Of a DNA stretch of 64,000 nucleotides, positions 1 to 16,870 are shown in pieces. The notes under the pieces were generated by a model that was not told where the DNA came from, searched no databases, and worked only from the letters and a program-made list of their open reading frames with translations. The stretch's first letter is position 1, and the number at the start of each line of letters is the position of its first letter. The DNA lies in the NCBI RefSeq assembly GCF_004359985.1, contig NZ_SMRO01000002.1, forward strand, positions 186,001-250,000, given 5' to 3'. The DNA comes from Paraburkholderia flava (GTDB taxonomy: Bacteria; Pseudomonadota; Gammaproteobacteria; Burkholderiales; Burkholderiaceae). Made by a program: the position numbers and the translations under genes.

Positions 1-68
1 GGGAGACGGCCGTAGCGCTGAACAAATCCGCCCCTGTTTTATGTGGCAGCTTACAATTTTGTCGTAAA

Positions 69-81
69 TCCCAATTTGGGA
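69..81. promoter_or_regulatory. Operator palindrome O1
   Basis: TCCCAATTTGGGA is a palindrome (TCCCAA, one central base, TTGGGA) lying just upstream of the -35 element. It shares its half-sites with the second palindrome at 113-129. It is a probable binding site for the XRE domain of the downstream antitoxin; that assignment is inference. Confidence 0.6.
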
Positions 82-83
82 AC

Positions 84-112
84 TTTACGCGCTGCTTTGT
101 TGTGTGTATAGT
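84..112 (+). promoter_or_regulatory. Promoter of the higB-higA-beta operon
   Basis: A sigma-70-like promoter is visible: TTTACG at 84-89, a 17-nt spacer, then TATAGT at 107-112. Transcription would begin near 119, before the ATG at 134. It is bracketed by two related palindromes (69-81 and 113-129), which fits autoregulation by the antitoxin. The GTG at 104 overlaps the -10 element, so it is unlikely to be the toxin start. Confidence 0.6.
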
Positions 113-129
113 GTTCCCAAATTGGGAAC
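113..129. promoter_or_regulatory. Operator palindrome O2
   Basis: GTTCCCAAATTGGGAAC is a perfect 17-bp palindrome with one central base, directly downstream of the -10 box and covering the likely transcription start. A repressor bound here and at 69-81 would sit on both sides of the promoter. Confidence 0.65.
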
Positions 130-133
130 AAAT

Positions 134-394
134 ATGCGGCTACTGGGTAAAGACAAGCTTCAGGTTGTTCTAGACAACGATGCTCGTATCTGGCTTCGTA
201 GCTGGATAGCGGAGTTGGCATCAGCGCACTGGAAAGAGGCGGGGGATGTTCTGGCGCAGTTTCCGCGTGCGACGTTGGTCTCTCCGGACACATTTATCTT
301 TCGCGTGGGAGGGGCCGTGTGGATCATCGAACTCGCGGTGCACTTCCCGCAGGGGATCGCATTGGTAGTGAGAATGGAACGAGCAGCATCATGA
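134..394 (+). CDS. higB: HigB-like toxin (RelE/ParE superfamily mRNA interferase)
   Basis: An 86-aa protein with the HigB-type pattern: a W..W segment followed by A.WK...DV..QFP, then the strand F.FRVGG and a C-terminal hydrophobic strand. HigB-family toxins cut mRNA on the ribosome and are neutralized by a partner antitoxin. The ATG at 134 was chosen because the upstream GTG at 104 lies inside the promoter. The stop TGA overlaps the ATG of the next gene (ATGA, 391-394), giving translational coupling in the toxin-first order typical of HigBA. The usual C-terminal THAEY-like tail is not recognisable, so activity is uncertain. Confidence 0.72.
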   Translation: MRLLGKDKLQVVLDNDARIWLRSWIAELASAHWKEAGDVLAQFPRATLVSPDTFIFRVGGAVWIIELAVHFPQGIALVVRMERAAS

Positions 395-1608
395 GCGACG
401 TAAAGGTAATTAAATCGGACGAGCAGTATCACGAGTATCTTGAAGCGGTTCATTCATTAATGCGGCGGCATCCCGCTCCAGGAAGCAATGATGCCGAGCG
501 ACTTGAATTGTTATCAGTATTGGTCGACTCGTATGAAGCATATAGATACCCTGTAGAGGCGCCTGATCCTGTGGACGCGATTCTATTTCGGATGCAGGAG
601 CGTGGGCTCAAGCAGTCCGATCTGGTGCCCTATTTTGGCACGCGCAGTAGGGTTTCGGAAGTTTTGGGGAGGAAGCGGCCGTTAACCGTGCCGATGATTA
701 GGGCATTGGCCGTAGGTCTTGGGATTTCCGCAGAGACCTTAATTGGGTTGGCATCGGCCAATGAAGAGAAGTCTGAGGAATCGGTTGACTGGTCGAAGTT
801 CCCGGTCAATGAAATGATCGCACGGGGCTGGTTGTCAAAATTTTCATCAAAGGCATCATCGGATGAAAACGACCTGGTGAAGAACTTTATTGCTGACGTT
901 GGCCTACAGTTTGGCAGCATGGCGTTTCGTCGCACGATAGGCGGGCAAGCATATTCGCCGACTACTAAATACGCACTTCATGCTTGGCTCGCGAGGGTCA
1001 TTCAGAAAGCGCGAGCCTTAAAGGATTCGTCGAGGTCGTTTTCAGCTGACGTCCTTTCGGCAGACTTCCTGCGCGAAATTGCGCAACTCAGCTGGTTTGA
1101 GCAGGGGCCGGTGTTGGCGGTTGAGTTTTTGGAAAAACACGGGATAGTTGTTGTGATGGAGCCGCAGTTAAAGGGCACAGCGCTTGACGGTGCTGCTTTG
1201 AAGGATGGTGATGGCACGCCGATCATTGCATTAACTTTGCGCCAAGATCGCCTCGACAACTTTTGGTTTACCTTGCTACATGAGGTGGCGCATCTATGGA
1301 AGCATGTGGGGCTGGATGAAACATTTCTCGACGATTTGGATGCATCAAGTGAGGATCGACGCGAGGTTGAGGCTAATAGATTGGCACGTGAGGCATTTAT
1401 TCCTCGCGTGAGCTGGAAACGCAGTGACGCATTTGTCTCGCCGAGCAAGGAGAATATAGATGCACTTGCTCGTGAATTGAAGATCAGCCCCGCAGTTATT
1501 GCAGGCCGACTGCGGCGAGAGTTGAATAACTATCAGCTCTTTAACGACATTGTCGGCTATGACCAAGTGAGGCGGCTTTTCGTAGGCCGTTTGGGACAGG
1601 GAGTATAA
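391..1608 (+). CDS. HigA-type antitoxin fused to an ImmA/IrrE metallopeptidase domain
   Basis: A 405-aa protein. Its N-terminal third matches the HigA/XRE style, with a helix-turn-helix around residues 68-110 (KQSDLVPYFGTRSRVSEVL). The C-terminal half carries an ImmA/IrrE-type zinc-peptidase site, HEVAH at residues 297-301, followed by acidic residues and an EANRLAREAFIP helix. The HTH should bind the two palindromes upstream. The peptidase domain may control antitoxin or partner stability, by analogy with ImmA cleaving ImmR. The start ATG overlaps the toxin stop; the open frame extends upstream to 319, but that part lies inside higB. The next gene begins two bases after the stop. Confidence 0.8.
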   Translation: MSDVKVIKSDEQYHEYLEAVHSLMRRHPAPGSNDAERLELLSVLVDSYEAYRYPVEAPDPVDAILFRMQERGLKQSDLVPYFGTRSRVSEVLGRKRPLTVPMIRALAVGLGISAETLIGLASANEEKSEESVDWSKFPVNEMIARGWLSKFSSKASSDENDLVKNFIADVGLQFGSMAFRRTIGGQAYSPTTKYALHAWLARVIQKARALKDSSRSFSADVLSADFLREIAQLSWFEQGPVLAVEFLEKHGIVVVMEPQLKGTALDGAALKDGDGTPIIALTLRQDRLDNFWFTLLHEVAHLWKHVGLDETFLDDLDASSEDRREVEANRLAREAFIPRVSWKRSDAFVSPSKENIDALARELKISPAVIAGRLRRELNNYQLFNDIVGYDQVRRLFVGRLGQGV

Positions 1609-1610
1609 AA

Positions 1611-2777
1611 ATGCTTACTTATGTACCTATTCTTCGAGCACGCGACGGCGAGTTTGAGGCATTGCGTCATATGCGTGATCTGGTAGCTCGGTCTGTAATG
1701 CCGCTGCTGGAGGTCCAAAAACAACCTTCTATAAAGCCGACCAAGCCGAAACCCCCACTGCCGGGCGCGAAGATCCGCAAGCCGCGAGCCCCGAAGCAGC
1801 CCAAATCGCTCCAAGACTACCTGAGCGAAGTTGCGGCCAAGCTGGCAGATGCGCATCGGGATCGCCCGTTTTTTGTAGATATGTATGCATTTGGTCCCAC
1901 GGATAGGGTAGAGAGTGGGGAGCATGTCTATACATACTTCTGCGGTGAGTTGCAATCTCTCGGCATGAACTTCCATGCCGTGGTCGGTGTCGATCGCTGG
2001 TCAGACGCAGAATACCGCGCGGCGATTGGGCGGGCTTTGCACATGAATGGTGGGAAAGCGCTTCTAAGACTTGAGGCAGAAGACCTTGAAGACATGGCCG
2101 ACGCGGAAATGTTCGATGACGTGCTTGGCGACGTAATGGATGAGTGCGGGTTAGTGGCTCAGAGCGTGCCTGTTTTAATCGACCTTGGTGACATTCGTGG
2201 GCGTCCACTGATGGACCTGTTACCGGACGTTTCCGCTGCTCTTGAGTTCCTCCGCACGCGAGGATTCGTTCAGGTTGTTATCGCAGGATCTTCGATGCCG
2301 ACGAGCATCAATGAAGCAGTGAAAAAGCAGAATTCCGCTGGATTCCTTCGGCGCGTTGAAATGATCCTGTGGAAAGCGCTGCTTCCGTCTACACCAGGGC
2401 TGCATGTCGTGTTTGGAGATTACGGAGTTCGCAACCCGCGATCAAACGACAATATCGCTCCAGACGCCAACGGCAAGATTCGCTACACCATCGCGAACGA
2501 ATTCTTCATCGTTCGCGGGCACTCGATGGCCGTGTACCCGAACGGGGAGCAAATGTGGGGGCTGGCGGATCAGATTGTCACATCACCGCATTATGCCAAG
2601 GAAGATTTCAGTTGGGGCGACGCGATGGTTAAAGTTTGCAGCGAACACATGATCAAAGGTAATTCGACACAATGGATCTCTTACGACACAAGCCATCACA
2701 TGGCTGCTGTTGTGGCCGAAGTATTCGAATACTCGCGAGCCACCACTGGCGTTAGCCTTTTGAACCGAGCGTACTGA
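1611..2777 (+). CDS. Beta family protein (T4 beta-protein-like), third gene of the TA operon
   Basis: A 388-aa protein starting MLTYVPILRARDGEFEAL, with internal LIDLGDI and a late FGDYG / ANEFFIVRG segment. This layout is characteristic of proteins annotated 'beta family protein' (Pfam Beta_protein), which recur next to ImmA/IrrE and XRE genes. A Lys/Pro-rich insertion (about residues 40-65) looks disordered. A Shine-Dalgarno-like AGGGAG precedes the ATG, and only two bases separate it from the previous stop, so it is in the same operon. Its biochemical role is not known to me. The toxin/antitoxin/third-protein arrangement suggests a tripartite defence or addiction module. Family call moderate; function inferred from context. 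Confidence 0.62.
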   Translation: MLTYVPILRARDGEFEALRHMRDLVARSVMPLLEVQKQPSIKPTKPKPPLPGAKIRKPRAPKQPKSLQDYLSEVAAKLADAHRDRPFFVDMYAFGPTDRVESGEHVYTYFCGELQSLGMNFHAVVGVDRWSDAEYRAAIGRALHMNGGKALLRLEAEDLEDMADAEMFDDVLGDVMDECGLVAQSVPVLIDLGDIRGRPLMDLLPDVSAALEFLRTRGFVQVVIAGSSMPTSINEAVKKQNSAGFLRRVEMILWKALLPSTPGLHVVFGDYGVRNPRSNDNIAPDANGKIRYTIANEFFIVRGHSMAVYPNGEQMWGLADQIVTSPHYAKEDFSWGDAMVKVCSEHMIKGNSTQWISYDTSHHMAAVVAEVFEYSRATTGVSLLNRAY

Positions 2778-2991
2778 GGGGAATTTCGCGCTGATAACTC
2801 TGTTTTTAAAACGACTTTAGATGGAATACACGTTTTTGCGGAGCAAATAATAGGGATCAATTGAGCCGTTATTCTGTTATAGATCTACCGCGCGAAAAGC
2901 TGTTGTACCTTGGAGTCTTCGATCAGGATACATCGATAGGTGGAAGCTCTACGTGAGCGTACCACGATGAATGCGTCCGAGATGCCAAGAG

Positions 2992-3011
2992 AAAACGCGC
3001 CTCACGGCGCG
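2992..3011 (-). terminator. Rho-independent terminator of the kinase-helicase operon
   Basis: On the minus strand CGCGCC, loop GTGA, GGCGCG form a 6-bp GC stem followed by TTTT. It lies 11 bases beyond the stop of the last minus-strand gene (3022). Confidence 0.6.
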
Positions 3012-3021
3012 CAGTTCCTTG

Positions 3022-4365
3022 CTACCGCCTCTGCCGTCGCTGTACGGCTACTTTATTATCTGCGCTGGATGGCTTACCTTGAATAACGCCGTATGCGTTT
3101 TCCAAGGCTCGCATGGCTGTTGCGAGGTTCTCACGTAGCAGCTCGTCACGCTCCGCGACGACGGACTCTTCTTCAGTTCTCTGCGATGCAGCCCTGCGTT
3201 TTGTCACGTTCCCGAAGCTGCCCGTAATCATTGGTGCAAGCTCCACATCAATGAGCCACGGTGAACGTGTCCGAAAGGGAATTGGTGCGCTCCGTCGAGA
3301 ATTATGGAGAATCTGCAGTTCGGAAATCGAAATATCCATGGGCATGTCGGCATTGAGCTGAAGGCCTTGATTCAGGACGGACCATCCAAAGCCATTAAAT
3401 GCTCGAAGTGCGTTGTCTTTGCCGAGAATTGCCGCACACAGACAATAAGCGATCGCAACTGTGCCATACGTATCAGCACTCTTTGCTAGCTCTAGAAATT
3501 CCAGCGAACCTGGCTCAATCAAGCTAATCAAGAACCCTTGCGCAAGTGGATTAAGCAATTCCTGTGATGGATGGCTGAGGGCCTCCATCACGATGTCGTA
3601 TCTTTGTTCTCGGCTGGTAACTTCCTCTAACATGTGTGCAATATCAGAAAGGCTATGAGCGAGAAAACTACGCTGATTCGTGTCAGCTTGCCTAAAGACC
3701 CAGCTTTGAACGTGATGCGCGAGTGGCGCCTGCGCGAAGTACTCAAGTTCGCGAAGGTCCGAGAGGGAGCGCACGAATTCGCACAAATCGGCTATCTGAC
3801 CGCGCGCAGGTAGGTTGACCTCATTCGCTGTCAATACGCTTGCCTCAAGCCACCGCTCAACCAGCGTGGTAAGCGACTTCCTTCTCCATCCCTTCATTAC
3901 GGCTTGAGCGCATACGAAAGATAACGTCCTACGGACACCATCCATTCCCATTAAGCGAAGATCTGCATCTGGACCGGCCGTTGTTATGAGTTCTCCAATG
4001 ATCAAACCGACAAACCCTAGCGCCACAAGATTGCTTAGTGGTTTTTCAGCGAAAACGTCGAGGTCGGTTACGTCATCTATACGCCATGTCTTCATAAAGG
4101 ACGTGACGGGGGTAGCAGCACCCGGGAGTGCCAACATTTTCGGCAGGAAGTTTGCTAAGGTGGTCTGCGAGCCAAGCAGGATCGACGGAAGGTCTACAGG
4201 CTGTGGGCTGCCGGTTGCCCATAGCACACGCACTTCATTGTCAGATAGCGGTTGCCCAAGGTCTTCTCCTTCGATTGTGCGTGCGCGCGTGCGCAGTTTC
4301 TCCAATCGCCCCAAGTTGCGAATCAGTTCTCCTGCATCGATGTCGAAACCTACAAACTCTCTCAT
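3022..4365 (-). CDS. Unknown protein, last gene of the kinase-helicase operon
   Basis: A 447-aa protein that I do not recognise. It is mostly predicted helical, with no signal peptide, no nucleotide-binding motif and no obvious nuclease motif. A moderately hydrophobic stretch lies near residues 112-125 (LVALGFVGLIIGEL). The C-terminal ~70 residues are charged, with an acidic/basic coiled-coil-like helix (EEESVVAERDELLRENL) and a basic tail. Its ATG overlaps the stop of the helicase gene (ATGA at 4362-4365), so the two are translationally coupled and probably made in fixed ratio. A terminator follows. It may be a scaffold or effector of the system; that is inference from context only. Confidence 0.75.
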   Translation of the reverse strand: MREFVGFDIDAGELIRNLGRLEKLRTRARTIEGEDLGQPLSDNEVRVLWATGSPQPVDLPSILLGSQTTLANFLPKMLALPGAATPVTSFMKTWRIDDVTDLDVFAEKPLSNLVALGFVGLIIGELITTAGPDADLRLMGMDGVRRTLSFVCAQAVMKGWRRKSLTTLVERWLEASVLTANEVNLPARGQIADLCEFVRSLSDLRELEYFAQAPLAHHVQSWVFRQADTNQRSFLAHSLSDIAHMLEEVTSREQRYDIVMEALSHPSQELLNPLAQGFLISLIEPGSLEFLELAKSADTYGTVAIAYCLCAAILGKDNALRAFNGFGWSVLNQGLQLNADMPMDISISELQILHNSRRSAPIPFRTRSPWLIDVELAPMITGSFGNVTKRRAASQRTEEESVVAERDELLRENLATAMRALENAYGVIQGKPSSADNKVAVQRRQRR

Positions 4366-5519
4366 GATGCTTTCCCAAATAAATTCGCAACGGTAACTTT
4401 CTCTACCCTTGGCTTAGCGAGTGCTGACGCAAAGAACGGATGTAAAGGTTGGTGGTGGTAGATAGTTAGCGCGGTTTTGGCTCTTGTAACTGCCATAAAC
4501 GCCACCCTTCGCTCATGCTTGTGAAAGTCTTTGAAAAGGTCCGCAGCAACAACGTGAGCACAACGAAACTCAAGTCCCTTGGACGAATGTACAGTGCTAA
4601 CCCATACGTGTAGTCCCGGGTCGAAGTCCCTAGACATTGCATTTGTAACCTGAGCAGCAATTTCAGGGGCTCCGGAAAGCATCTCCACGACGTGCTCAAC
4701 GTCCCGCCGATGCGGAACCAAAACGCCGATAACTTGGCCCGGATAGACCGCGAGTTGCTTGGCAAGCTTAGGGATCAACACCTTTATCTGATCGGCGAGT
4801 TCTTTGCCGTCCACGACCTCGACATTACCGGGGTCTCCCTTGTACTGATGAGTTTCGAGCATTGGTTTGTGCTCGAATTTTCCGGCCATGATTTTGTCGG
4901 CCACCTCAAGTATCGCCGGTGCTACACGGTGATGAAATTGCAGCGTAATTTTAGCGTCCCAAGCATGGCCATTAAGCCAAGATGTACCACTTGAACCGAC
5001 GTCGTAGATACCTTGGCGCAGATCGGCGGCGCAAGATAGATTCGTCGCAAGATATTCGAACATTGCGAGATCCTCACCCGAATAGTCCTGCGCCTCATCA
5101 ATGAAAAGTACTGGGTATGTGTTTTTGCCAGCTCCTGTCTTCATCATTGTTGTCATCGCTGACTTCAGCGATGACAATCGCTCATCAATGGGTTCGCCGG
5201 GATTCCGTTCCGGAAGAAATCCATGGTCACCCAGCACCTGCTCAAGCAACTTGTACTGCGTAATTATGCGATTTGCCGGAAATGAGTAGAGATCGGCGCC
5301 TGTCCGAATGAACTTTGCCAAAAGGCCAGTGAAGCAAATGATGTAGAACTCCGAATCAGCCGAAGTCAGCATCATGTGATTCGCACGTAACAGAAGGAGA
5401 TTTGTCTTGCCGCTTCCGGGTGGACCCGAAAGAATGAGATCTTCGGACAGATCCACTCCAAGCACGTCAAGCTGTTCGTCAAGCAAATCATCTTGATCAA
5501 CCCACCAAGTACCGGACAT
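4362..5519 (-). CDS. UvrD/Rep-like superfamily 1 ATPase (helicase)
   Basis: A 385-aa protein with the SF1 motifs in order: Walker A GPPGSGKT (32-39), Walker B with DEAQD (141-145), motif IV-like LQFHHR (193-198), HSSKGLEF (311-318, motif V region) and VTRAKTAL (344-351, motif VI with the arginine finger). It is much shorter than UvrD (about 720 aa), lacking the 1B/2B insertions, so it may be a translocase or signalling ATPase rather than a processive helicase. GGGAG precedes the ATG. It starts 17 bases after the kinase stop and overlaps the next gene by 4 bases. Function in the operon (sensing DNA or RNA ends, gated by the kinase) is inference. Confidence 0.85.
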   Translation of the reverse strand: MSGTWWVDQDDLLDEQLDVLGVDLSEDLILSGPPGSGKTNLLLLRANHMMLTSADSEFYIICFTGLLAKFIRTGADLYSFPANRIITQYKLLEQVLGDHGFLPERNPGEPIDERLSSLKSAMTTMMKTGAGKNTYPVLFIDEAQDYSGEDLAMFEYLATNLSCAADLRQGIYDVGSSGTSWLNGHAWDAKITLQFHHRVAPAILEVADKIMAGKFEHKPMLETHQYKGDPGNVEVVDGKELADQIKVLIPKLAKQLAVYPGQVIGVLVPHRRDVEHVVEMLSGAPEIAAQVTNAMSRDFDPGLHVWVSTVHSSKGLEFRCAHVVAADLFKDFHKHERRVAFMAVTRAKTALTIYHHQPLHPFFASALAKPRVEKVTVANLFGKAS

Positions 5520-5536
5520 TGCCGAGTCTCCCGCTT

Positions 5537-6886
5537 TTACTGTTCAAGTAGCTCTTCGATTATCGTGAGAATCCATTCCTGAAACTTCTCGGAGCAACCA
5601 TCAAGACTCTCTAAGGCCGGCCCGAGGTAATTCCAACCGACTTCCGTGTCTGTGCTGCCCTTCGAAGCTCTTGAATAAACATCGACAAGGCTGTCATTTT
5701 CGTGGAGAGCAATGGCAACTTGGATTCGAAACGACACTGCGAGACCGAAGTTTGGCGCAGCGACGAAGGTGTAGGTGAGGGCAGGAAGGGGGTGTGCCTC
5801 ACCATCAACGGATGTTGACCTTGTAGGCATAAGTGCGCCGAGTGCGGCAAGCGCATGGTCAAACTGACTCCTGGCAGATCGTACAATCGTTGAGAAGCGC
5901 CTATCCTTCAGCCGCCGCTCTTCTACACCCTCCATCGCATCGACCCGACCTAGGACCTTGCCGACACGACTCCGCCGCTGTAGTGCGTCTATACGTGACT
6001 GAAGTGAGGGCTTTTGCGTCGCACGATCCGAGAACATAAAGTCATCCCAGCGGACCAATTCCAGCCTCTCATTCGGACGCTTCAAAAGGCATCGGGTTGC
6101 TAGATTGCAGAGGTGTGGATCAACATCTTCGGCCGTCACATTGACAATGTCGCTATCGATGGCTGACACCAAGTCTGCATGCCGATTCGTTGCGTAATCG
6201 AAGATCGGTTTGCGGACGACCAGATCGTGCAAAACGGCCCCTATTTGATAGAACGTAATTGCTCGCCAGCTATCCAAAGTGTTTTCTTCTCGCCCATGAA
6301 TCATCTCGGGAGGGCTGTACTGATGCGTGCCAATGAAAGCCTTCGAGACTTGCAGATTTGTCGCAGAGTCGTCGCCATGCGGCTTCAGCACACCGAAGTC
6401 CAGCAACATCAACGACGTCAGGTCGTCGCTAACGTGAATGTTGTCAGGCTTTATGTCGCGATGCGTGAACCCCCAGTTCTCGAGTTGCATAGCTGCACGA
6501 GCAAGTTGCTCAATGAGCGTAACGATATTTGCGCGCGGAATGGAAGCGAGAAGTTTGGACAGCGGTTGCCCCGCCGCGACGTCCATCGCTACGAACAGGT
6601 GTTCGGTGACTGCGCAGCTGCCCGCTTCCAGAACACGAACAATATTTGGGTGATATTTATCAATGAGTTCCCGTTCGCGATTAACTCTGATTAGCTGTGC
6701 GTCGCGGCCATACTGTGCAACCAGGCCTGGATGAAAAACCTTGATGACCGCTTTTGTTTGATCGCGACGAGCGCCCATGATCACGGCCGACTTGCCGTGT
6801 GAGACGAATTCCAAGATATCCCAGCCTGCGAGAGAACCGCCGGCCAAGAGAGAATCTGAGAACACTTTGGCTTCAGCAAAATCCAT
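5537..6886 (-). CDS. Ser/Thr protein kinase
   Basis: A 449-aa eukaryotic-like kinase. Visible landmarks are the VIKVF lysine (K49), alpha-C glutamate region (71-73), catalytic loop HRDIKPDN (142-149, Asp144), DFG (163-165) and GTHQYSPPE of the activation/P+1 segment (186-194). The kinase domain ends near residue 280. The last ~160 residues form a separate domain with no recognised family and no membrane segment, so it is probably cytoplasmic. All catalytic residues look intact. GGAAG precedes the ATG. It sits 18 bases after the 159-aa gene and 17 before the helicase gene, in one operon. Bacterial kinases in such cassettes often act as infection sensors; its role here is inferred. Confidence 0.9.
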   Translation of the reverse strand: MDFAEAKVFSDSLLAGGSLAGWDILEFVSHGKSAVIMGARRDQTKAVIKVFHPGLVAQYGRDAQLIRVNRERELIDKYHPNIVRVLEAGSCAVTEHLFVAMDVAAGQPLSKLLASIPRANIVTLIEQLARAAMQLENWGFTHRDIKPDNIHVSDDLTSLMLLDFGVLKPHGDDSATNLQVSKAFIGTHQYSPPEMIHGREENTLDSWRAITFYQIGAVLHDLVVRKPIFDYATNRHADLVSAIDSDIVNVTAEDVDPHLCNLATRCLLKRPNERLELVRWDDFMFSDRATQKPSLQSRIDALQRRSRVGKVLGRVDAMEGVEERRLKDRRFSTIVRSARSQFDHALAALGALMPTRSTSVDGEAHPLPALTYTFVAAPNFGLAVSFRIQVAIALHENDSLVDVYSRASKGSTDTEVGWNYLGPALESLDGCSEKFQEWILTIIEELLEQ

Positions 6887-6904
6887 TGTGACTTCCAGAT
6901 ACGG

Positions 6905-7384
6905 CTAGCAAAGGTTATAACGGAAGCGCTCGGCCACTAGCATGACCTCATGCCCGCTCGTGGCCGCTTCCTTTAGGCCGCCATTGCTCTGATGAACAAA
7001 ATCAAGTGATTCCATATCAGCTTGGATTTTCTCAACAGTAGTATCTTCTTGGCTCCAATAGAACTGGTAGTGACCAAAAAGGTCCTTGCACTTCGTGCTG
7101 TAGCACACCGAATAGTCGCCAAGCGGCTCAATCGATATTAGCGATGAGGTTTTCGTTTTGTATCCGGCAGCGATTGAGGCATCACCTGTGCAGAAGAGTG
7201 AGCTCCCACGGTAGTCAACGCCGAAGCGATCCACGAACCATTCGCTCAGCGCCTGGTGGATGGCGAGTGGCATGTCTCGCGGCCTCCTTGCCCTGTGCAG
7301 ATTGGGGTTGGAGATAACTCCGGTCATGCCCGTGAGATATTTTGTCGAGTGCGCACGAAAGAGCGTTGGAACACTTGAGACCAT
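6905..7384 (-). CDS. Unknown 159-aa protein, first gene of the kinase-helicase operon (possible ADP-ribosyltransferase-like fold)
   Basis: A small soluble protein with the strong start signal GGAAGG a few bases before the ATG. I recognise no family with confidence. The pattern LFRAHS near the N terminus and GSSLFCTGDASIAAGY in the middle resembles the Arg strand and the 'F.T....A..Y' NAD-pocket segment of several ADP-ribosyltransferase-like toxins; no clear catalytic glutamate can be assigned by eye. Several Cys and His residues are present, but no CxxC. As promoter-proximal gene of the operon it may be sensor or effector. Function unproven. Confidence 0.65.
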   Translation of the reverse strand: MVSSVPTLFRAHSTKYLTGMTGVISNPNLHRARRPRDMPLAIHQALSEWFVDRFGVDYRGSSLFCTGDASIAAGYKTKTSSLISIEPLGDYSVCYSTKCKDLFGHYQFYWSQEDTTVEKIQADMESLDFVHQSNGGLKEAATSGHEVMLVAERFRYNLC

Positions 7385-7754
7385 TTCCCCTTCCTTGAAC
7401 CAGCGTCGTAAACTGACGGAGCTCTTCCACTCTCTTCGGCTTGGTGATGGCGAGCCTCAGGTTTCTTGCTTGCATAGCGCGCCACATAAGCGAAGTATTA
7501 TTGCATATATCGCTAACTGTTCAACCGGCTCGGCCATGCTGCGGAGCAGGCGGCTAGTGCCATATTGTCGATGACAACGGGGCGTGCTTGCCCTCATGGT
7601 GGGCGACTGCTGCTTCGGCCGAGCTATCTATCGCCAGACGGGGCGGAGCACAGCCGGAGCACTCCACAGCGCGGGTTAAGAAATGGTGGCGCTGTGCGCC
7701 GAAGGCGCGGTCTCAAAACTGATCGGGCGCTGCGTCGAGAACAGATTTGCTGGT
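7385..7754. other. Non-coding stretch between the kinase operon and the XRE/lipoprotein cargo
   Basis: About 370 bp without a convincing gene. It should hold the promoter of the minus-strand kinase operon at its left end. The short open frames here (for example 7565-7771) have Arg/Gly-rich shadow composition and no ribosome binding site. I see no repeat or att-like copy in it. Confidence 0.5.
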
Positions 7755-8105
7755 TCACTTCCCCAGACTGAGTCGGTCGGCGAACTCACCTAGCCACCTC
7801 ACCAGTAATTGTCTGTCAGCTAGCGGCACTCGCCCCAACATTTTTACGACTTCGGCAGCCTGATCCACCGTCACGGTTGACGACTCCATCAGCAGTTCAC
7901 CTGTGGGACAGCCAAACAGCTCGGCAAGCTCGGCCAGACGCACAACGGTCGGGATAGCGGTTCCTCTTTCTACCCGCGCGACAGCCTCCCGCTGCAATCC
8001 AAGCTTCTCGGCTACCTGTTCTTGGGTGAACCCAGCTTCGACACGCTTGCGGGCGATCGTTTTGCCTACAGCGTCAGCCAGCGCGGCTTCAGCAACCTTA
8101 TTCAT
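7755..8105 (-). CDS. XRE-family transcriptional regulator
   Basis: A 116-aa protein with an N-terminal helix-turn-helix (AGFTQEQVAEKLGLQREAVA, then RVERGTAIPTVVRLAELAELF) and a C-terminal helical segment probably used for dimerization. The ATG at 8105 is preferred over the longer frame to 8174 because AAGGAG lies at ideal spacing before it. It is divergent from the lipoprotein gene at 8269, with an imperfect palindrome at 8177-8191 between them. A related regulator with the same architecture sits at 37,658-38,116 in the other island, also divergent from a Gly-rich lipoprotein gene. Likely an autorepressor controlling the neighbouring cargo. Confidence 0.85.
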   Translation of the reverse strand: MNKVAEAALADAVGKTIARKRVEAGFTQEQVAEKLGLQREAVARVERGTAIPTVVRLAELAELFGCPTGELLMESSTVTVDQAAEVVKMLGRVPLADRQLLVRWLGEFADRLSLGK

Positions 8106-8176
8106 AGCGACTCCTTCTGCTACTTCAATGGTTGCAGCGCTACGTCTTGACAGGTAGTCTTTAATACGTTTCAATG

Positions 8177-8191
8177 CTACCTATTAAGTAG
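8177..8191. promoter_or_regulatory. Candidate operator between XRE gene and lipoprotein gene
   Basis: CTACCTATTAAGTAG is a 15-bp imperfect palindrome centred in the 163-bp divergent intergenic region. It is AT-rich relative to its surroundings. A binding site for the adjacent XRE protein is likely but inferred. Confidence 0.45.
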
Positions 8192-8268
8192 TATTCAGCC
8201 CTTTTTATTGACGTCTCGTGCCCCAAACGCCGGTAGTCCCTTAAAGCGCAACAAAACAGGAACCAGAA

Positions 8269-9111
8269 ATGAAGAAGTCGCTTGTAGCTGCCCTCAGTGT
8301 GTGTTCCGCCCTTGCGGCATGTGGCGGTGGAGGGGGAAATGACAGCAACAATTCGAACACTGCAAATACCTTACAGCCGTATTCGATAGCCTATGAAGAC
8401 TACAACGCAAGCGCTGGCATCTCAGGAACATCCTGGATTGGTGCCTCGTTCGTCGACAACATGCCGACGAAAACCAACACCCAGACGCTGACACAAAGCG
8501 GCTGGACCGGCCAGATCACCTATGGGGTATCGGGCAGCCCCAAGACCATTCAAGTCAACAACGCTGCGCTCGCGAACACGAGCCCTATCAGCGTCGTGGG
8601 CAGTTCGTCACCGCGCATCTTCGATCCTTATGGGGCAACAGGCACGTCGCTGGGCACGAACACCGAACCGAATCTCGACGGCGCATTGGAGATCTGCGGG
8701 GCAGCCCCTACCGGCAGCATCAGCGACAACGGCTATGCAGCCACCGACATTCTGATTACCGGTACTGCTACCCAAGTCACCGCTGTCAGCGAGTTGGCGG
8801 GGAAGAGCTTCGTCTTCAACCAATATTGCGACCCAATCAATCAAGCTCACCCGCAGACGCTGAGCTTCGATTCGGCGGGCAATGCAAATTTCGAGCTGTA
8901 CACGGGTTCGACGAACTCGGGACCTTTGACGGCGGTTCAGGTTCCCGCTGCCTCGTTTCAGGGCGCGATGAATGGCACGCCGTATGTCGACTCGCAGCAG
9001 GGGCAAACGCTCTGGACGGTGTACCGCTTCGTCACTGCGACGAGCACGTTGAGGTACGTCGTGGTGGAACGGGGAACTGCGGACGGCAACTATATTGGCA
9101 TGTGGTATTGA
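8269..9111 (+). CDS. Putative lipoprotein of unknown function
   Basis: A 280-aa protein. The N terminus MKKSLVAALSVCSALAAC is a lipoprotein signal with lipobox LAAC, cleaved before Cys18, followed by a Gly/Asn/Ser linker (GGGGGNDSNN). The mature part is rich in Ser, Thr, Gly and Asn with beta-strand character, consistent with an extracytoplasmic or surface protein. I recognise no enzymatic motif. It is divergent from the XRE gene and followed after 72 bases by another lipoprotein gene on the same strand. Similar Gly-rich lipoproteins in Burkholderiales are mostly uncharacterized. Possible roles as an exclusion or surface-masking factor are speculation. Confidence 0.8.
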   Translation: MKKSLVAALSVCSALAACGGGGGNDSNNSNTANTLQPYSIAYEDYNASAGISGTSWIGASFVDNMPTKTNTQTLTQSGWTGQITYGVSGSPKTIQVNNAALANTSPISVVGSSSPRIFDPYGATGTSLGTNTEPNLDGALEICGAAPTGSISDNGYAATDILITGTATQVTAVSELAGKSFVFNQYCDPINQAHPQTLSFDSAGNANFELYTGSTNSGPLTAVQVPAASFQGAMNGTPYVDSQQGQTLWTVYRFVTATSTLRYVVVERGTADGNYIGMWY

Positions 9112-9183
9112 CAGGGCGGGCGCGGGGATTCGAACGTGTCCTCGCGTCTGTTGGACGTTTTAGGGTGATGTGCTGGTTCAATC

Positions 9184-10035
9184 ATGAAAATCAAATTTGC
9201 TTCTATTCTGCCGGTCGCTGTGTTGATGGCCGCTTGCCATGAGCGCGTGGACAATGCAGCTCAATCGGCCGTCGCAGCTTCGGCCCCCACTTCGGCCACG
9301 ATTGCCGCGAGCCAGTCTGACGCGATCCTTTCAAGTGCGGACAAGGCAACGTACACACGCGAGCTAAATCTGAGCTTGAACAACGTGACCGAGGCCGACT
9401 GGAAGACCTATTACCAGACGACGTTGGACGCGATCTCGAACTCCAGTACCACGACAACGGATCAGTTAGCCGCAGTGAAATTTCCGGGCTACGCGAGCAT
9501 TCGGAATCCGTTTGACAAGCAGCAGTTTCAGGACGCGCACAAGTCGGATTTGAGCGTGACTGCGAAGACGCCCGCGAAGATCAAACTACTCTTCGATGGT
9601 CGTGGATTCGATCCGGTCCTTCTGAATGCTGGTGATCCGTTGAAGGGGCACTACGAGTGGCAAGGCTCCTTCCAGCAGATCATGGTCGGATATAGCTGGC
9701 AGGACGTCGCCCGGACAGTGGACAGCAAGGGCGTCCTTCGCGAAAAGAGCGTGACCACGACGATCCGCTATCACTTGAATTCATTCGCGCCATCTATCAA
9801 CCGCAAATATAAGCGAGACGTGTCGGCAGACGCCGCGAAGCGGATCGAATCTGAGCTGAGCCGAGATAACAACGGTAATGAAAATTTGCCGGCGATCGTC
9901 TACGCGACGGTTCAGTCGGTGCAGGTGACTGGCAGCGACGACCAATCGACGCATGCAATCGATGTGAATCTCGCTGTGGATGGGTTTGATGTGGCCGTTG
10001 GTAAGGGCAAGGATATCAAGCCGTTGTTCGATTGA
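9184..10035 (+). CDS. Putative lipoprotein of unknown function
   Basis: A 283-aa protein with signal MKIKFASILPVAVLMAAC (lipobox LMAAC, lipidation at Cys18). The mature protein begins with an Ala/Ser-rich segment and continues with charged, mixed alpha/beta sequence, including repeated Lys/Asp pairs and a VTTTIRYHLNSF strand. No family was recognised. It forms a same-strand cluster with the lipoprotein at 8269 and the membrane protein at 10,134, so the three may be a cargo operon acting at the envelope. Function unknown. Confidence 0.78.
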   Translation: MKIKFASILPVAVLMAACHERVDNAAQSAVAASAPTSATIAASQSDAILSSADKATYTRELNLSLNNVTEADWKTYYQTTLDAISNSSTTTTDQLAAVKFPGYASIRNPFDKQQFQDAHKSDLSVTAKTPAKIKLLFDGRGFDPVLLNAGDPLKGHYEWQGSFQQIMVGYSWQDVARTVDSKGVLREKSVTTTIRYHLNSFAPSINRKYKRDVSADAAKRIESELSRDNNGNENLPAIVYATVQSVQVTGSDDQSTHAIDVNLAVDGFDVAVGKGKDIKPLFD

Positions 10036-10133
10036 TTGCGTTAGGGGGCGTTTCCGTAGCCAACAGCCGATGTGGTAGAGCATTCGCAGTTGGCGACGTC
10101 ACACGATCCCCGTATACAAACCGGAAATTCAAT

Positions 10134-10856
10134 ATGAGTAACGATCCCAATAGTTCCACCCCTGCGCGCGGTCCGCTTGGCACTTTTAGCGACAACGTCA
10201 CCGGCGATATGTGGTCTGGCGGGAAGATTCACACCGCTGGTGAGCAGATTGCAGCGGGCATCAACGCATCGACTGACCGCACGACGGCGGAAATCATCAT
10301 GGCAACGACCTCGGTCGGCGCTGATCAGAGCGTTGGTCCTAACGGTGTAAAGGCGCTAGCAATCTTCGTCGCCATTTACTCTGTCGCATCGCTCATTCCT
10401 TACTCCCTCTACGTTCTCGACGTTCCAAATACCAGTTCGATTTTTATTCAGTACCTGGTGTTCGCGACCATTGCCGCATCGGTCGTCATCTTGATAAAAG
10501 GCGATTCGATCGGCTTGCGAGCCAAGCTCACAATAGTTGGAGGCCTGATCGTTGCACAGTCGGCATTCGGGTTTTACAACCTGATATCGGCCGCCTTCAC
10601 TGGATGGGCACTGACCGGGCTCGTTTTGAATGTCGCTCGACTTGCGATTGGCGTGGGCATAATCCGTGGTCGTGCTGTCGCCCGCCTCGGATTCGTTGTG
10701 CTTGCGGCAATTTCAGTCGTGTTGACATTGTTCGCTGTCAAATTTTCAGCTACCTGGTCCTATGTGATGCTGTTTCGGTCGCCGTTGAGCTTGCCATTTT
10801 CAGTAGTATTCACCTTCCTGCTTTTCGGTAGTGATCTACGATCCAGCTTCAAGTAG
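10134..10856 (+). CDS. Membrane protein of unknown function
   Basis: A 240-aa protein using the ATG at 10,134; the frame is open further up to 10,032, but that extension overlaps the preceding stop and looks non-coding. A hydrophilic N-terminal ~70 residues precedes about six hydrophobic segments (around residues 76-92, 104-122, 130-145, 150-168, 180-200, 205-230 of the mature frame). No transporter signature was recognised. It follows two lipoprotein genes on the same strand. No strong Shine-Dalgarno sequence is visible. Confidence 0.7.
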   Translation: MSNDPNSSTPARGPLGTFSDNVTGDMWSGGKIHTAGEQIAAGINASTDRTTAEIIMATTSVGADQSVGPNGVKALAIFVAIYSVASLIPYSLYVLDVPNTSSIFIQYLVFATIAASVVILIKGDSIGLRAKLTIVGGLIVAQSAFGFYNLISAAFTGWALTGLVLNVARLAIGVGIIRGRAVARLGFVVLAAISVVLTLFAVKFSATWSYVMLFRSPLSLPFSVVFTFLLFGSDLRSSFK

Positions 10857-10897
10857 ACTACGGCATCGAGGATCTCACGGCCGTTTCCAGTACATAT

Positions 10898-11188
10898 ATG
10901 CCAATCATTCCGCCCGATGCCGCGCCGTACGTCAACCGTCTAATTCGGTTGGGGTTTTTTAAAGAGCAAGTTGTGTCGGATGATTCGAACGGATTTGCTT
11001 CGTTCAAGCTGTACTTCACCCAATATGTCATCGATAGCTTGCTAATGGTCGAGGGGAGCTACATGGACTTCGACCTGAACAGTTTTGTCGGATTCGATAA
11101 CGACAATGACTTGGCGGTGAAGCTCTCCGTGATGATGGATGTTCCCGTAGAAAAGACAATGAAGGTTCTCAAAGACCTGGGAGCCTGA
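10898..11188 (+). CDS. Small acidic hypothetical protein
   Basis: A 96-aa protein with an alternating hydrophobic/acidic pattern (YMDFDLNSFVGFDNDNDLAV) and a final helix (EKTMKVLKDLG). No signal peptide or membrane segment. The 3' end overlaps the convergent relaxase gene by 20 bases. Coding potential is moderate; no family recognised. Confidence 0.5.
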   Translation: MPIIPPDAAPYVNRLIRLGFFKEQVVSDDSNGFASFKLYFTQYVIDSLLMVEGSYMDFDLNSFVGFDNDNDLAVKLSVMMDVPVEKTMKVLKDLGA

Positions 11189-12575
11189 GCGCGGATGACC
11201 GCCTACGGGGTGGCGCTTTGAGTTCGGCAAGGCGCTGTTCCTGTTCTCTGGTAACGGCTTGTCTCTTGATCTCGACGATACGCAGGTTCAGGGCCGTAAT
11301 TTGCCCCTGAATTTTTCCGGCCGCTACCGTATCGCCTTTTGCGCCTGCCACAACCAGTTGCGTTTCAAGCTGCCCGAGTTCGCCCTGTAACGATAGAAGG
11401 TCAACGCTTGCGATTGCACTGCTATGGCCGACAGGAGGCGAGGGCTCGTCGATGGCAGATCGATCGGTCGCAGTCGATTCAGTGAAATTTTCTGCCATAG
11501 ATCGACGAACGTGGGTGAGGAGATCACCGTTTGGCTCGGGTTGAGTCCGGGCTGAGGCGATTTCCGCACTGCGTAGCTCTTCGGTCTTTCGTTCAATGAC
11601 TTGGTTTAGTGTTGCATGATGCCCTGCTGTCATCGCACGCTTGGTCAAATCGATCTGGTTGCTGAACGCAGTTCTTCTGCTATGTTTATACCTCGCGGTA
11701 TTGAACTGCGCACGCTCGGCCGTGAATCCGTCGAGCTTTGCCCGTAACAGGTTGGCGTGTTGCTGGGTGAGAGTCGCATTCCCGATACGTTCGAGGCTGT
11801 AATTTTGCCCGCCGTTGTTTTCGTAGATATAGCCACGAAACCGAATAGCCCGGCCATTTTTTTGATTCTTGATGCTGAGATAGTCTGAACCGATACGCGT
11901 AAATTCGCAGCCGTGGTCGTGCAGGTACTGGATTAGCTCGGGCCGATTCCTGATTTTTCCTGCCTGGATTTTCTTCACCAGGTTGGCATGCCATTTAAGC
12001 TTCGACGCGTGCGAACCAGAGTCTAGAGCGGGGCTGTCGGTCAGGCCGCCATGTGCCTTGAGTTTGCGCACATGCTCGCTCTCATGCAATCGAGCGGGAT
12101 CGGGTACGACTTGCTCGTAGCCGAAGTGATGATTCATCACGGCCACGAACGTATTGTAGAACGCCAGATTCTTTGCCCCCGTCGGGTGAATGTTCATTGA
12201 CTTCTGCGTCGTCAGTTCGACGCGAGGCACAACGAAATTCAGTTCAACACGGCCTTTATCGCGATGTTCGACCCAGAGAATGTTGTACCGATCTGGAGTC
12301 AAGCCAGCGAGGAAGCTTTTTTCAAACTCGGCCATGATCTGGCGCTTCTGCAGTGTAGTGGGCTGCTCACTGGAGCGAAACGCAATGCAGCCCGCGACAT
12401 ATCGATGCTTGAATGGGAGACTGTCGATCAAGATGTCAGTGACGGCAGGGTTACCCGCAAGGATTTCGGGCTGGACAGATCGCAGTGCCTTGGTATGGTC
12501 GCGCTCGCTAAGGAGATATTGCACAGGGCCGACCGCGCTCAATTTCTGCGAGCGTCGAAAAATCTTGATCATCAT
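11169..12575 (-). CDS. Relaxase, ColE1 MbeA-type (HEN-motif MOBP)
   Basis: A 468-aa mobilization nuclease that would nick oriT and pilot the strand through a helper's conjugation channel. Key residues: Tyr20 in VQYLLS near the N terminus, the position of the catalytic Tyr in MbeA, and His104-Glu111-Asn113 in EHRDKGRVELNF. The spacing H-(+7)E-(+9)N is that of the MbeA triad (H97, E104, N106) rather than the three-histidine motif of most relaxases. The C-terminal ~200 residues are a hydrophilic helical extension. Its ATG overlaps the mobC stop (12,572-12,575). With mobC, the oriT-like region and a Rep gene, it forms a plasmid-type mobilization module inside an integrated element. Confidence 0.85.
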   Translation of the reverse strand: MMIKIFRRSQKLSAVGPVQYLLSERDHTKALRSVQPEILAGNPAVTDILIDSLPFKHRYVAGCIAFRSSEQPTTLQKRQIMAEFEKSFLAGLTPDRYNILWVEHRDKGRVELNFVVPRVELTTQKSMNIHPTGAKNLAFYNTFVAVMNHHFGYEQVVPDPARLHESEHVRKLKAHGGLTDSPALDSGSHASKLKWHANLVKKIQAGKIRNRPELIQYLHDHGCEFTRIGSDYLSIKNQKNGRAIRFRGYIYENNGGQNYSLERIGNATLTQQHANLLRAKLDGFTAERAQFNTARYKHSRRTAFSNQIDLTKRAMTAGHHATLNQVIERKTEELRSAEIASARTQPEPNGDLLTHVRRSMAENFTESTATDRSAIDEPSPPVGHSSAIASVDLLSLQGELGQLETQLVVAGAKGDTVAAGKIQGQITALNLRIVEIKRQAVTREQEQRLAELKAPPRRRSSALRLPGL

Positions 12576-12934
12576 GCTGGCAGATCGCCATCAAGTCCGC
12601 CACGACAAAAGAAATAATCACGGTGGGCGGACAGTTCGGCCTCGATACGTCGAAGTGCCTCGGTGGTCTGTAAGTCACAATTACCATGCGAGGCGATGGA
12701 CTCCAAACTCATTGCGATCTGCTGAATGCGCAGCACATATTCTGGAACCCATGACAACGAAAATGGACTGCGCCCGGATTTTGTACGTGCAGCAAGTGCG
12801 GATTGCTTCACGAATGTGCCAGGTGTTGAGGCTCCAGCGCGTACAGCCAGCGTGTGAAGGTGCAATAGCTCGTCGTCACTGAAGCACACTTCGATGCGGT
12901 TTCTTCGCTTTGTGGGGGATGATGCTTCGGGCAT
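12572..12934 (-). CDS. MobC-like mobilization accessory protein
   Basis: A 120-aa protein with a basic N terminus, a ribbon-helix-helix-like segment (RIEVCFSDDELLHLHTLAVR, then STPGTFVKQSAL) and a C-terminal helix. MobC proteins bind oriT and help the relaxase melt the nick region. The ATG at 12,934 is preceded by AAGGAGG at good spacing; the longer frame to 12,997 lacks this. It overlaps the relaxase gene by ATGA and lies immediately downstream of the oriT-like hairpins at 12,961-13,043. Confidence 0.8.
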   Translation of the reverse strand: MPEASSPTKRRNRIEVCFSDDELLHLHTLAVRAGASTPGTFVKQSALAARTKSGRSPFSLSWVPEYVLRIQQIAMSLESIASHGNCDLQTTEALRRIEAELSAHRDYFFCRGGLDGDLPA

Positions 12935-12960
12935 GTTTGCCTCCTTTATTATTGTTATAG

Positions 12961-13043
12961 ACGGGTGGAAACGGGTATCAGGGCAGCGCCCTGACAAGGT
13001 TCGTATTCTGGCGATAGCCGGAATGCGAGTAACCTTGCTGTTT
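12961..13043. other. Candidate oriT (transfer origin), ColE1/bom-like
   Basis: Intergenic region upstream of mobC with two hairpins: TCAGGGC, loop AGC, GCCCTGA (12,978-12,994), and TTCTGGC, loop GATA, GCCGGAA with one G-T pair (13,006-13,023), followed by TGCGAGTAACCTTGC. Order and sequence of these elements (GGGT.TC.GGGC, then GCGATAGC.GGA.TG) resemble the bom region of ColE1/pBR322 as I remember it, which fits the ColE1-type relaxase next door. No nick site is proven. Confidence 0.55.
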
Positions 13044-13375
13044 CAGGTCTGCGGATTTGTTGTGGTGGTTCCACGGCCTCCTTCGACGCTACCAATGCCG
13101 AGTTTTTCGCGCGCAGCGAATATCTTGGCAAGCACGCTAGGGGCTTGATATGTCTCCGGTTCGAAGGCTGAAAAATCTGCCACCAGCACATCGATTTCAG
13201 CCAGTCGGGCAAGCAGCGCGGCGGAATAAAAAAAGACTCGTTTAACGTTGTTGACGACAAGTGCGATGCACTTCTGGTTGCCGAGCACGATGATCGAAGC
13301 GTGGCTGACACTTCCTCTTTTGAGGATGGTTGGATTATTTAATGGTGTGGATTCCTGATTTGTATTTGCTGCCAT
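13043..13375 (-). CDS. Hypothetical protein upstream of the mobilization genes
   Basis: A 110-aa protein; GGAGG four bases before the ATG supports the start. The central part (SIIVLGNQKCIALVVNNVKRVFFY) is hydrophobic and beta-like, followed by an LLARLAEIDVL helix; the tail is Gly/Thr-rich. No family recognised. It sits between the Rep gene and mobC on the same strand and has its own promoter-like box (13,394-13,423), so it may be a replication or mobilization accessory factor. Confidence 0.65.
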   Translation of the reverse strand: MAANTNQESTPLNNPTILKRGSVSHASIIVLGNQKCIALVVNNVKRVFFYSAALLARLAEIDVLVADFSAFEPETYQAPSVLAKIFAAREKLGIGSVEGGRGTTTTNPQT

Positions 13376-13393
13376 AACGCCTCCATTTATCTT

Positions 13394-13423
13394 CAGGCTA
13401 ACGGAAAAAATTCGAAAGTCAAG
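13394..13423 (-). promoter_or_regulatory. Promoter/operator box P1 shared with the rep promoter
   Basis: On the minus strand TTGACT is followed by an A/T-rich spacer (TCGAATTTTTTCCG) and a weak TAGCCT. The 22-nt segment at 13,402-13,423 matches 14,867-14,888 at 19 of 22 positions. It lies about 25 bases upstream of the 110-aa gene. The rest of 13,376-13,640, downstream of rep, holds no gene I accept and is where a ColE2-type origin would be expected. Confidence 0.45.
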
Positions 13424-13640
13424 ACTACGCGATCAGAGTTTTGATTTCGCCCGTTTTTGTTTTCCCTATTTTTTGGCTTTTCGACAGATAGGTTGTCCAG
13501 ATCCCGAACAGGTTTTCCGGTCATGGGTTTTTCCTCTGCTGGCAAGGACCTTGCACGGGAGTGGCAGAAAAGCACAGCTTCGCTGATTACCTGATACACC
13601 GTCGTGACACGGCGACTCCCGCAAAGAAATCTCGTACCAC

Positions 13641-14774: not shown

Positions 14775-14858
14775 CGTAGCTCCTGCTGTTGCGTGAGCTA
14801 CGACGACAATCAGGGTTGCTGTGTCTTACGGGACAGGCCCGGCACATAGTCACCCTAT

Positions 14859-14888
14859 TGATTTACCGGAAAAATTTCGATTGTCAAG
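14859..14888 (-). promoter_or_regulatory. Promoter/operator box P2 upstream of rep
   Basis: On the minus strand a consensus TTGACA (14,882-14,887) is followed at 16 bp by TAAATC. The spacer carries the same TCGAA.TTTTTCCG element as the box at 13,402-13,423. The pair suggests co-regulation of rep and the gene upstream of mobCA. Confidence 0.5.
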
Positions 14889-14899
14889 GCGCGGAAATG

Positions 14900-14924
14900 A
14901 AAAAACACCCGTGAGGGTGCTTTT
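14900..14924 (-). terminator. Terminator after the 66-aa gene
   Basis: CACCC, loop GTGA, GGGTG, flanked by A-run on the left and TTTT on the right, so it can work on either strand. On the minus strand it lies 30 bases past the stop of the small gene at 14,954. Confidence 0.6.
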
Positions 14925-14953
14925 GCGCGGGTGATTGCTTACCCAACTATCTC

Positions 14954-15154
14954 TTAACAGACCTTAAGCTGAACGCTTGAGCCAGACATCTGGTTCAACA
15001 TTTTGATAATGATTTTCGCAAGTTCCTCGGCAGCTGCTGCGCGGAAAATCTTTGACCAGCAAATGGGTTCTCCGTAATAAAGCTCGCATTTCTGCATGAG
15101 GTCCTTGAGTTCGGGTGTTACGCGAAAATGAAAATCCTCTGTAAGAATGGCCAT
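14954..15154 (-). CDS. Small protein, possible ribbon-helix-helix or excisionase-like regulator
   Basis: A 66-aa protein, MAILTEDFHFRVTPELKDL at its N terminus, which reads like a short beta strand followed by a helix as in ribbon-helix-helix proteins; the C-terminal half is helical (AAAAEELAKIIIKML). AGGAGA precedes the ATG. It lies between the Rep gene and the integrase, the usual place for a copy-control or excision factor. Function inferred from position. Confidence 0.62.
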   Translation of the reverse strand: MAILTEDFHFRVTPELKDLMQKCELYYGEPICWSKIFRAAAAEELAKIIIKMLNQMSGSSVQLKVC

Positions 15155-15359
15155 AATATTCTCCTGTAAAGTTTATGGTTTGTGTCGCCCTCCTTTCTGG
15201 TTAGTCGACGAATTGGATAATATCAAAATTAATAATTTAATGCAATAACTATTTACAAATAAATCCATTCATTATAATCTGTTTCAAAAAAACAACAACC
15301 CACTCGGTGCGTTTAAAAATAGCTTTTTATATTGGGTGGACTGATTTCGGCTTTGTGGA
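15155..15359. other. AT-rich intergenic region next to the integrase
   Basis: About 205 bp, clearly richer in A/T than its neighbours (runs such as TCAAAATTAATAATTTAATG at 15,222-15,241). It should carry the promoter of the 66-aa gene and may serve as an origin or IHF-bending region. No gene seen. Confidence 0.4.
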
Positions 15360-16802: not shown

Positions 16803-16833
16803 CTGGGTCACATGCTGTGACACCGGACAAAAG

Positions 16834-16870
16834 AAAAAGCCTTGCAAACCATTGATTTGCAAGGCTTTTT
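16834..16870. terminator. Bidirectional terminator between integrase A and its att site
   Basis: AAAAAGCCTTGCAAA, loop CCATTGA, TTTGCAAGGCTTTTT: a 15-bp perfect stem with A-run and T-run flanks. It would stop tRNA-side transcription from entering the integrase gene. Confidence 0.8.

Follow-up and report, generated by a model that had tools for sequence, protein, structure and literature searches.

We analysed a four-gene operon in a 64,000-nucleotide stretch of Paraburkholderia flava DNA (contig NZ_SMRO01000002.1, positions 186,001 to 250,000; hereafter the window, whose numbering is used for its features). The operon encodes p159, a Ser/Thr kinase, a superfamily 1 (SF1) mini-ATPase and p447, and sequence comparison defines the last three as a rare yet widely scattered core found in Rhizobium, Cupriavidus, Achromobacter, Herbaspirillum, Pseudomonas and prophages. 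The features of the operon are as follows.

6905–7384, minus strand: p159, first gene of the operon, 159 aa; accessory component, predicted ADP-ribosyltransferase (ART)-superfamily protein
7355–7357, minus strand: p159 Arg10, the same residue in all 34 aligned proteins; candidate for the first ART catalytic position
7187–7189, minus strand: p159 Thr66 (in LFCTG), likewise unchanged in all 34; candidate for the second ART catalytic position
6947–6949, minus strand: p159 Glu146, putative catalytic Glu opening the last strand (model strand 146–158), invariant in 34 of 34
5537–6886, minus strand: Ser/Thr kinase, 449 aa; core component (Pfam Pkinase, 3.7e-22)
4362–5519, minus strand: SF1 (UvrD/HelD-like) mini-ATPase, 385 aa; core component (UvrD_C_2, 4.3e-12)
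3022–4365, minus strand: p447, 447 aa; core component, fast-diverging, mainly helical, without a family model
3352–4038, minus strand: p447 residues 110–338, predicted shape like ADP-ribosylglycohydrolases (ARH3/DraG)
2995–3012, minus strand: terminator-like hairpin 3' of p447, the last gene

The operon and its conserved core

The four-gene operon is real: the minus-strand open reading frames span 7384–3022, with the protein lengths and the intergenic gaps of 18, 17 and -4 nt that an earlier, sequence-only reading had given. The terminator which that reading placed after the last gene is present as a terminator-like hairpin at 3012–2995, with a stem of 7 pairs, then TTTCTCTTGG. Terminator-like sites in the region are no commoner than in shuffled sequence (6 vs 5.3), so the argument for this hairpin is its position and not the site count. 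Promoter-like sites occur at chance level (3 vs 3.8), with one upstream of the operon at 7524–7497.

The complete set, with its gene order unchanged, is found in Achromobacter kerstersii (L002), Herbaspirillum huttiense (L003) and Pseudomonas fluorescens (L004), at 48–73% identity per gene to the window; these are the three loci with an ATPase at least 67% identical, and the order is kept in each. A plasmid search with the ATPase returned 33–34% identical copies from two Rhizobium leguminosarum records and one Cupriavidus record, in each of which the ATPase gene directly follows a kinase gene and directly precedes a p447-like gene. Scans of viral contigs yielded two prophages carrying kinase, ATPase and p447 (L089, L090), and genome scans yielded two genomes of one genus with the same set (L091, L115). 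In tblastn within the fetched loci, the window's p447 matched L115 (8.5e-9) and L090 (1.3e-5), and the Rhizobium p447 matched L089, L090 and L091 at 9e-11 to 1e-13. Ten loci were compared after omitting the second Rhizobium record, a near copy of the first.

The kinase–ATPase–p447 core is present in 10 of 10 loci. p159 lies directly upstream in 4/4 loci of the window's branch and was detected nowhere else (4 of 10); it was undetected in L084, L085, L089, L090, L091 and L115, where a strongly diverged copy could escape. Across the ten loci, the three core genes diverge in near proportion to one another when compared by pairwise identity (Mantel r 0.982, 0.982 and 0.962), with none of 2000 permutations as good for any core-gene pair. 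p447 is the fastest-diverging core protein: identity between the three branches is 15–22%, against 30–38% for the kinase and 28–37% for the ATPase. Because the core is in every locus, p159 is found in four and core divergence is congruent, we describe a three-gene core with a lineage-specific fourth gene; on these comparative grounds, kinase, mini-ATPase and p447 form one unit. The four-gene system proposed from the sequence alone thus holds for gene order in the window's close relatives, but the part that travels together throughout is the triad. An indirect sign of linkage is that 21 of 48 p159 database entries, including the window's own, pair with a p447 entry through a longest contig of equal size (48 p159 and 54 p447 entries, each including the window's own; one p159 entry has no recorded length).

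The core is sparsely distributed. A p447 profile built chiefly on the window's branch matched the window's genome alone among 399, 369 and 144 genomes scanned, and an ATPase profile matched 2/398 and 2/248 genomes. A second p447-profile match, G329, was dropped as chance; its frames resemble histidine-kinase genes, and no kinase–ATPase–p447 set was seen at its locus. Searching plasmids with p447 gave no match, though diverged copies occur on plasmids, and viral-contig scans with p447 and p159 gave none. Among the 80 ATPase-related loci kept out of 315, 77 (L005–L081, mostly Bacillales) match the ATPase alone at 23–30%, and tblastn of the four proteins against 37 of these (L005–L041) found no kinase, p447 or p159. 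We infer that these ATPase-only loci encode HelD.

Both enzymes of the core appear intact, as the sequence-only reading had it. Kinase residues K49, E71, H142-R143-D144, N149 and D163 are invariant in the ten-locus alignment; the glycine-rich loop is unusual (HGKSAV, vs the usual GxGxxG). Key residues of ATPase motifs I to VI are invariant in the same loci, comprising Q16, G32–T39 (except S36), D141–Y146, D166, Q169, R198, K314–E317, R319, T345, R346, K348 and T349. The 385-aa ATPase is a bare motor core whose length varies only from 382 to 387 aa across loci, and from this length we infer that it lacks the UvrD 1B/2B insertions.

Predicted folds of p159 and p447

The database entry for the window's own p159 (P0061) is 122 aa, and 14 of the 48 entries are 104–130 aa. 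The first 37 residues of p159 are conserved among the 34 proteins of our alignment A1 (the window protein and 33 of 48 matches, excluding the 14 short entries and P0064), which suggests that the 159-aa start is correct; the shorter gene call would lose the invariant Arg10. On the strength of this alignment we put forward R10, T66 and E146 as candidate catalytic residues.

Sequence methods offered no family for p159: no Pfam family, no PADLOC-DB or NCBIfam family at E<=1, and no match in a sequence search of the PDB. An AlphaFold2 model (mean predicted local distance difference test, pLDDT, 89) gave nothing significant in Foldseek against the PDB. VIA-align returned 12 entries: one of unknown function (2aua, 7.9), one unrelated (2.1), and ten ADP-ribosyltransferases, assigned in part from their titles. 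The ten are Arr (5.1 and 4.5), DarT/DarTG (4.3, 4.1, 3.6 and 3.3), VPA0770 (2.8), EcPltA (2.7), RES-Xre (2.5) and a diphtheria-toxin homologue (2.2). Against predicted viral structures the model matched 17 at E<=1e-3 (best 2e-12, TM score 0.71), all uncharacterised phage proteins, three of them different proteins of jumbo phage Atu_ph07.

One Atu_ph07 protein, AUZ95167.1, also matched p159 by sequence (tblastn 3e-4; profile 2e-18 among five proteins). Its YRG, FCTG and NEIM motifs resemble FRA, FCTG and HEVM of p159. FCTG is kept within the main profile alignment, which begins only at p159 residue 21; YRG was matched to the Arg10 region by eye, and NEIM aligns with Glu146 in no more than a weak secondary segment (i-Evalue 0.01), a different Glu taking that place in the main one. 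p159 also matched a PHROG profile of unknown function (2.6e-13), while a match in a Salicola phage was weak and not significant (E 0.6). The phage proteins sharing fold and motifs with p159 are a probable ART-like family (PHROG 11975, 15932); the Atu_ph07 relative lies at 6875–7651 of L113. A reading of p159 as an FRG protein was not supported, with 0/34 p159 members matching Pfam PF08867 and an hhalign E of 0.44 against 11 FRG proteins.

Taken together, p159 is likely an ART-fold enzyme. The case for ADP-ribosylation is moderate; it comes from predicted structure and is unconfirmed by sequence methods. The protein was formerly described as unrecognised, which is accurate as to family models but not as to shape, the predicted structure resembling Arr, DarT and RES ADP-ribosyltransferases.

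For p447, searches of Pfam, PADLOC, NCBIfam and PHROGs gave no significant family (none at E<=1 in PADLOC-DB 2023 or NCBIfam), and a sequence search of the PDB gave a chance-level match only; it represents a fast-diverging family that the four model libraries used do not cover. Fifteen residues are invariant across the ten loci, including W172, R252-E253-x-R255, D344 and E349. In its AlphaFold2 model (pLDDT 82), the middle of the protein (residues 110–338) resembles ADP-ribosylglycohydrolases (ARH), and 6dre, which bears the PDB title of an ART toxin/immunity pair and which we take to be Tre1–Tri1, is among the structure matches. Whether p447 truly has the ARH fold we regard as evenly balanced. 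A working ADP-ribosylglycohydrolase was rejected: TDDT-like and DTDT-like aspartate motifs occur in 1/40 and 0/40 proteins of alignment A2 (the window protein and 39 of 54 matches) and in 0/15 and 0/15 of alignment A5, against 7/7 and 5/7 in yardstick ARH proteins selected by reading frame alone, and profile comparison was not significant. A stretch of A2 that paired GFVGLIIGELITT with the ARH GDAxG helix (E 0.27) was given no weight, A5 having aligned elsewhere. The ARH-shaped domain is probably non-catalytic. Here too the label "unrecognised" survives for family models but gives way in part for predicted structure, and the two unknown proteins gain testable identities.

A probable integrative element and neighbouring defence genes

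Two further features of the window bear on the setting of the operon.

104–2777, plus strand: PD-Lambda-2 neighbour (PADLOC; A 104–394, B 319–1608, C 1611–2777), context outside the system
16878–16893, plus strand: 16-bp tRNA-Met 3' end copy, inner boundary of the element carrying the operon

Within 104 kb searched, the 16-bp 3' end of tRNA-Met is repeated exactly at three sites: -180 (beyond the window), 16878 and 41306. A DUF6538 protein (15360–16931), integrase-like by position, adjoins the middle copy, which its longest frame overlaps, and a phage-type integrase (39874–41220) adjoins the copy at 41306. Because these copies bound it and integrase-type genes adjoin the last two, the operon seems to be carried by a 17.1-kb element, arranged in tandem with another that holds a type I restriction-modification (RM) system. 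The location in an integrative element proposed earlier is supported. The operon's element has relaxase and replicase genes; the second, of ~24.4 kb, combines type I RM with a TrwC-type relaxase (26243–29278). Rfam detected no family at gathering threshold in window positions 1–17500.

The adjacent genes had been taken for a toxin-antitoxin module. All three instead match PD-Lambda-2, which is a defence system in its own right (A 1.7e-29, B 2.9e-186, C 1.4e-141), 244 nt from the operon; type I RM genes follow at 18.0–25.0 kb. In scans limited to chosen proteins of the fetched flanks, known defence genes flank 5 of the 10 loci, a raw count. Besides the window, these are L002 (type I RM), L004 (AbiEi and IetAS), Rhizobium L084 (HamA and HamB of Hachiman) and Cupriavidus L085 (RmrT and RmrA of RmrTA). 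L089 and L090 are prophage cargo, flanked on either side by structural or lysis genes: in L089 the core lies between a neck/tail-completion gene and an endolysin gene, and in L090 (7035–13487) the triad, encoded on the strand opposite to the surrounding cluster of prophage head genes, has the maturation protease gene on one side and a minor head protein gene on the other. A defence neighbourhood or prophage is thus present at 7/10 loci. L003, L091 and L115 showed no known defence gene or prophage context among 11 flanking proteins tested; neither an ABC-type ATPase hit in L091 nor a weak one to mad2 in L115 was counted.

In Rhizobium, the last 5 nt of p447 are shared with an FRG-domain fragment (PF08867, 1.7e-5, profile positions 50–83 of 94). 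In one strain this fragment also overlaps, at its other end, with an IS3 transposase gene; the fragment is short also in the sister strain, with no transposase listed beside it. The FRG domain is counted in the ART superfamily (PMC9503650). As one degraded fragment, it is only a hint of effector exchange.

Several smaller observations were made in these flanks. In one Rhizobium strain (L084 4503–6158) HamA measures ~238 aa and borders on an IS481 element; a sister strain (L118 3166–4158) has a longer, 330-aa HamA. The triad in genome G1464 (L115) lies ~440 bp from tRNA-Gln (5549–5622), a possible integration site. An AAA/STAND-type ATPase without a PADLOC match follows the Cupriavidus p447 (L085 10606–11994).

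A candidate defence system and its rivals

The operon probably has a role in defence. More specifically, it may well be an undescribed anti-phage or anti-mobile-element system, in which a conserved three-protein switch is joined, in the window's lineage, by an ADP-ribosylating effector. Its component set matches no named system that could be tested (PADLOC 2023, NCBIfam 2026, Pfam, PHROGs), no PADLOC 2023 system representing p159 or p447, and among openly licensed papers, preprints excluded, we found no description of the gene set.

We hypothesize that infection gives rise to a nucleic-acid structure or a transcription/replication complex which the ATPase engages; with p447 as a fast-evolving scaffold or sensor, the ATPase would switch the kinase on. 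The kinase would then phosphorylate a partner, releasing p159 from silencing by p447, and p159 would modify a host or phage target (or consume NAD+) so that infection stops. In lineages without p159, the output may be the kinase itself or an exchanged effector such as the Rhizobium FRG-domain gene. The order of these steps is tentative. Equally speculative is a wider view of the operon as a new class of immune complex that puts ADP-ribosylation under the control of Ser/Thr phosphorylation: an SF1 motor would sense infection, the kinase relay the signal, and a dead ARH-shaped protein act as ADP-ribose sensor or leash over exchangeable ART-superfamily effectors (p159, FRG), with p159 sharing ancestry with jumbo-phage proteins. 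If true, phosphorylation and ADP-ribosylation would be linked in one immune switch, and a family of uncharacterised jumbo-phage proteins would be suggested to be ART-like.

An unlikely alternative is an addiction module, in which a toxic ART, p159, is neutralised by p447 and/or the kinase and stabilises the integrative element rather than blocking phages. DarTG, DraT–DraG and Tre1–Tri1 pair an ART with a macrodomain or ARH partner, and the operon resembles them in encoding an ART-like enzyme, first in the operon, beside an ADP-ribose-hydrolase-shaped protein; the toxin/immunity title of 6dre and carriage on the 17.1-kb element fit as well. However, 6/10 loci retain the supposed antitoxin genes although no p159 was detected there, p447 lacks the ARH motifs, and the operon adds a kinase and a conserved ATPase, the latter superfluous for a plain toxin-antitoxin pair.

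We give a similarly low probability to defence driven by the kinase as effector, as in PD-T4-6, with the ATPase and p447 as sensor and regulator and p159 as passenger or helper. PADLOC-DB 2023 comparisons used the best 25 of 34 kinase models and the best 25 of 48 ATPase models; among these, PD-T4-6 models were the closest to the kinase (6.1e-29), and the core persists without detected p159 in six loci. The match covers only the kinase domain, which is common to many kinases, and p159 keeps its upstream place throughout the window's branch. The operon does not fit PD-T4-6 itself, a stand-alone, single-gene kinase system: genes for the ATPase and p447 come after the kinase gene in all ten loci.

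Less probable again is a regulatory or stress operon without a defence role, serving prophage or element maintenance or encoding a HelD-like RNA-polymerase-recycling ATPase. HelD is the best NCBIfam match of the ATPase (7.1e-15), the operon is found in prophages and an integrative element, and three of ten loci have no known defence neighbour; yet the ATPase matches HelD through no more than the C-terminal part of a 779-position model, known defence genes lie beside five loci, and p447 diverges fast. Gabija GajB (2.9e-14) shares the SF1 motor motifs with the ATPase as HelD does, and both differ from it in that the operon's is a bare core with other partners. The operon does not fit Gabija, where a GajA nuclease neighbours GajB: GajA is absent among the models listed for kinase and ATPase, and p159 and p447 match no PADLOC model.

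Least probable is that p447 removes or senses ADP-ribose which phage ARTs have attached to proteins of the host, an idea that Iyer et al. 2022 put forward for other ARG-centred operons (PMC9503650): p447 has an ARH-like shape and phages encode p159 relatives, but the ARH aspartate motifs are absent, the operon itself has an ART-like gene in one branch, and Pfam found none of the Nudix, WYL or phosphatase domains in the four proteins. Those operons, described with Nudix/WYL regulators, phosphatases and chaperones, share with ours an ADP-ribosylglycohydrolase theme in a conflict setting (PMC9503650).

The reading of the operon as an undescribed defence system was set against further systems. CmdTAC is a defence of several genes whose ADP-ribosyltransferase is restrained until infection releases it (PMC11618068); its partners are an antitoxin and a chaperone answering a capsid protein, its abstract names no kinase or SF1 ATPase, and p159 has no PADLOC match. 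CapK/CapS (PMC13373217) is unrelated. The PADLOC candidates C3a187 (NERD+UvrD) and C3a189 (kinase) are matched by domain (kinase 5.4e-13, ATPase 3.8e-10) and have neighbouring model accessions (PDLC01087, PDLC01088), so they are possibly one candidate system with the same kinase/UvrD pairing; the C3a189 and C3a187 models are 840 and 559 positions long, NERD was not seen in the operon, and no p447 or p159 model accompanies them. The defence operons of Mokosh, BREX (PglW) and MADS (mad6) include a kinase, some along with a nucleic-acid motor, in other domain fusions. Their matches to the operon kinase are weaker and confined to the kinase domain (MkoA 5.2e-14, PglW 5.1e-11, mad6 6.5e-20), and components of these systems appear only as kinase- or ATPase-domain similarity among the models listed, the flanks having been scanned in part.

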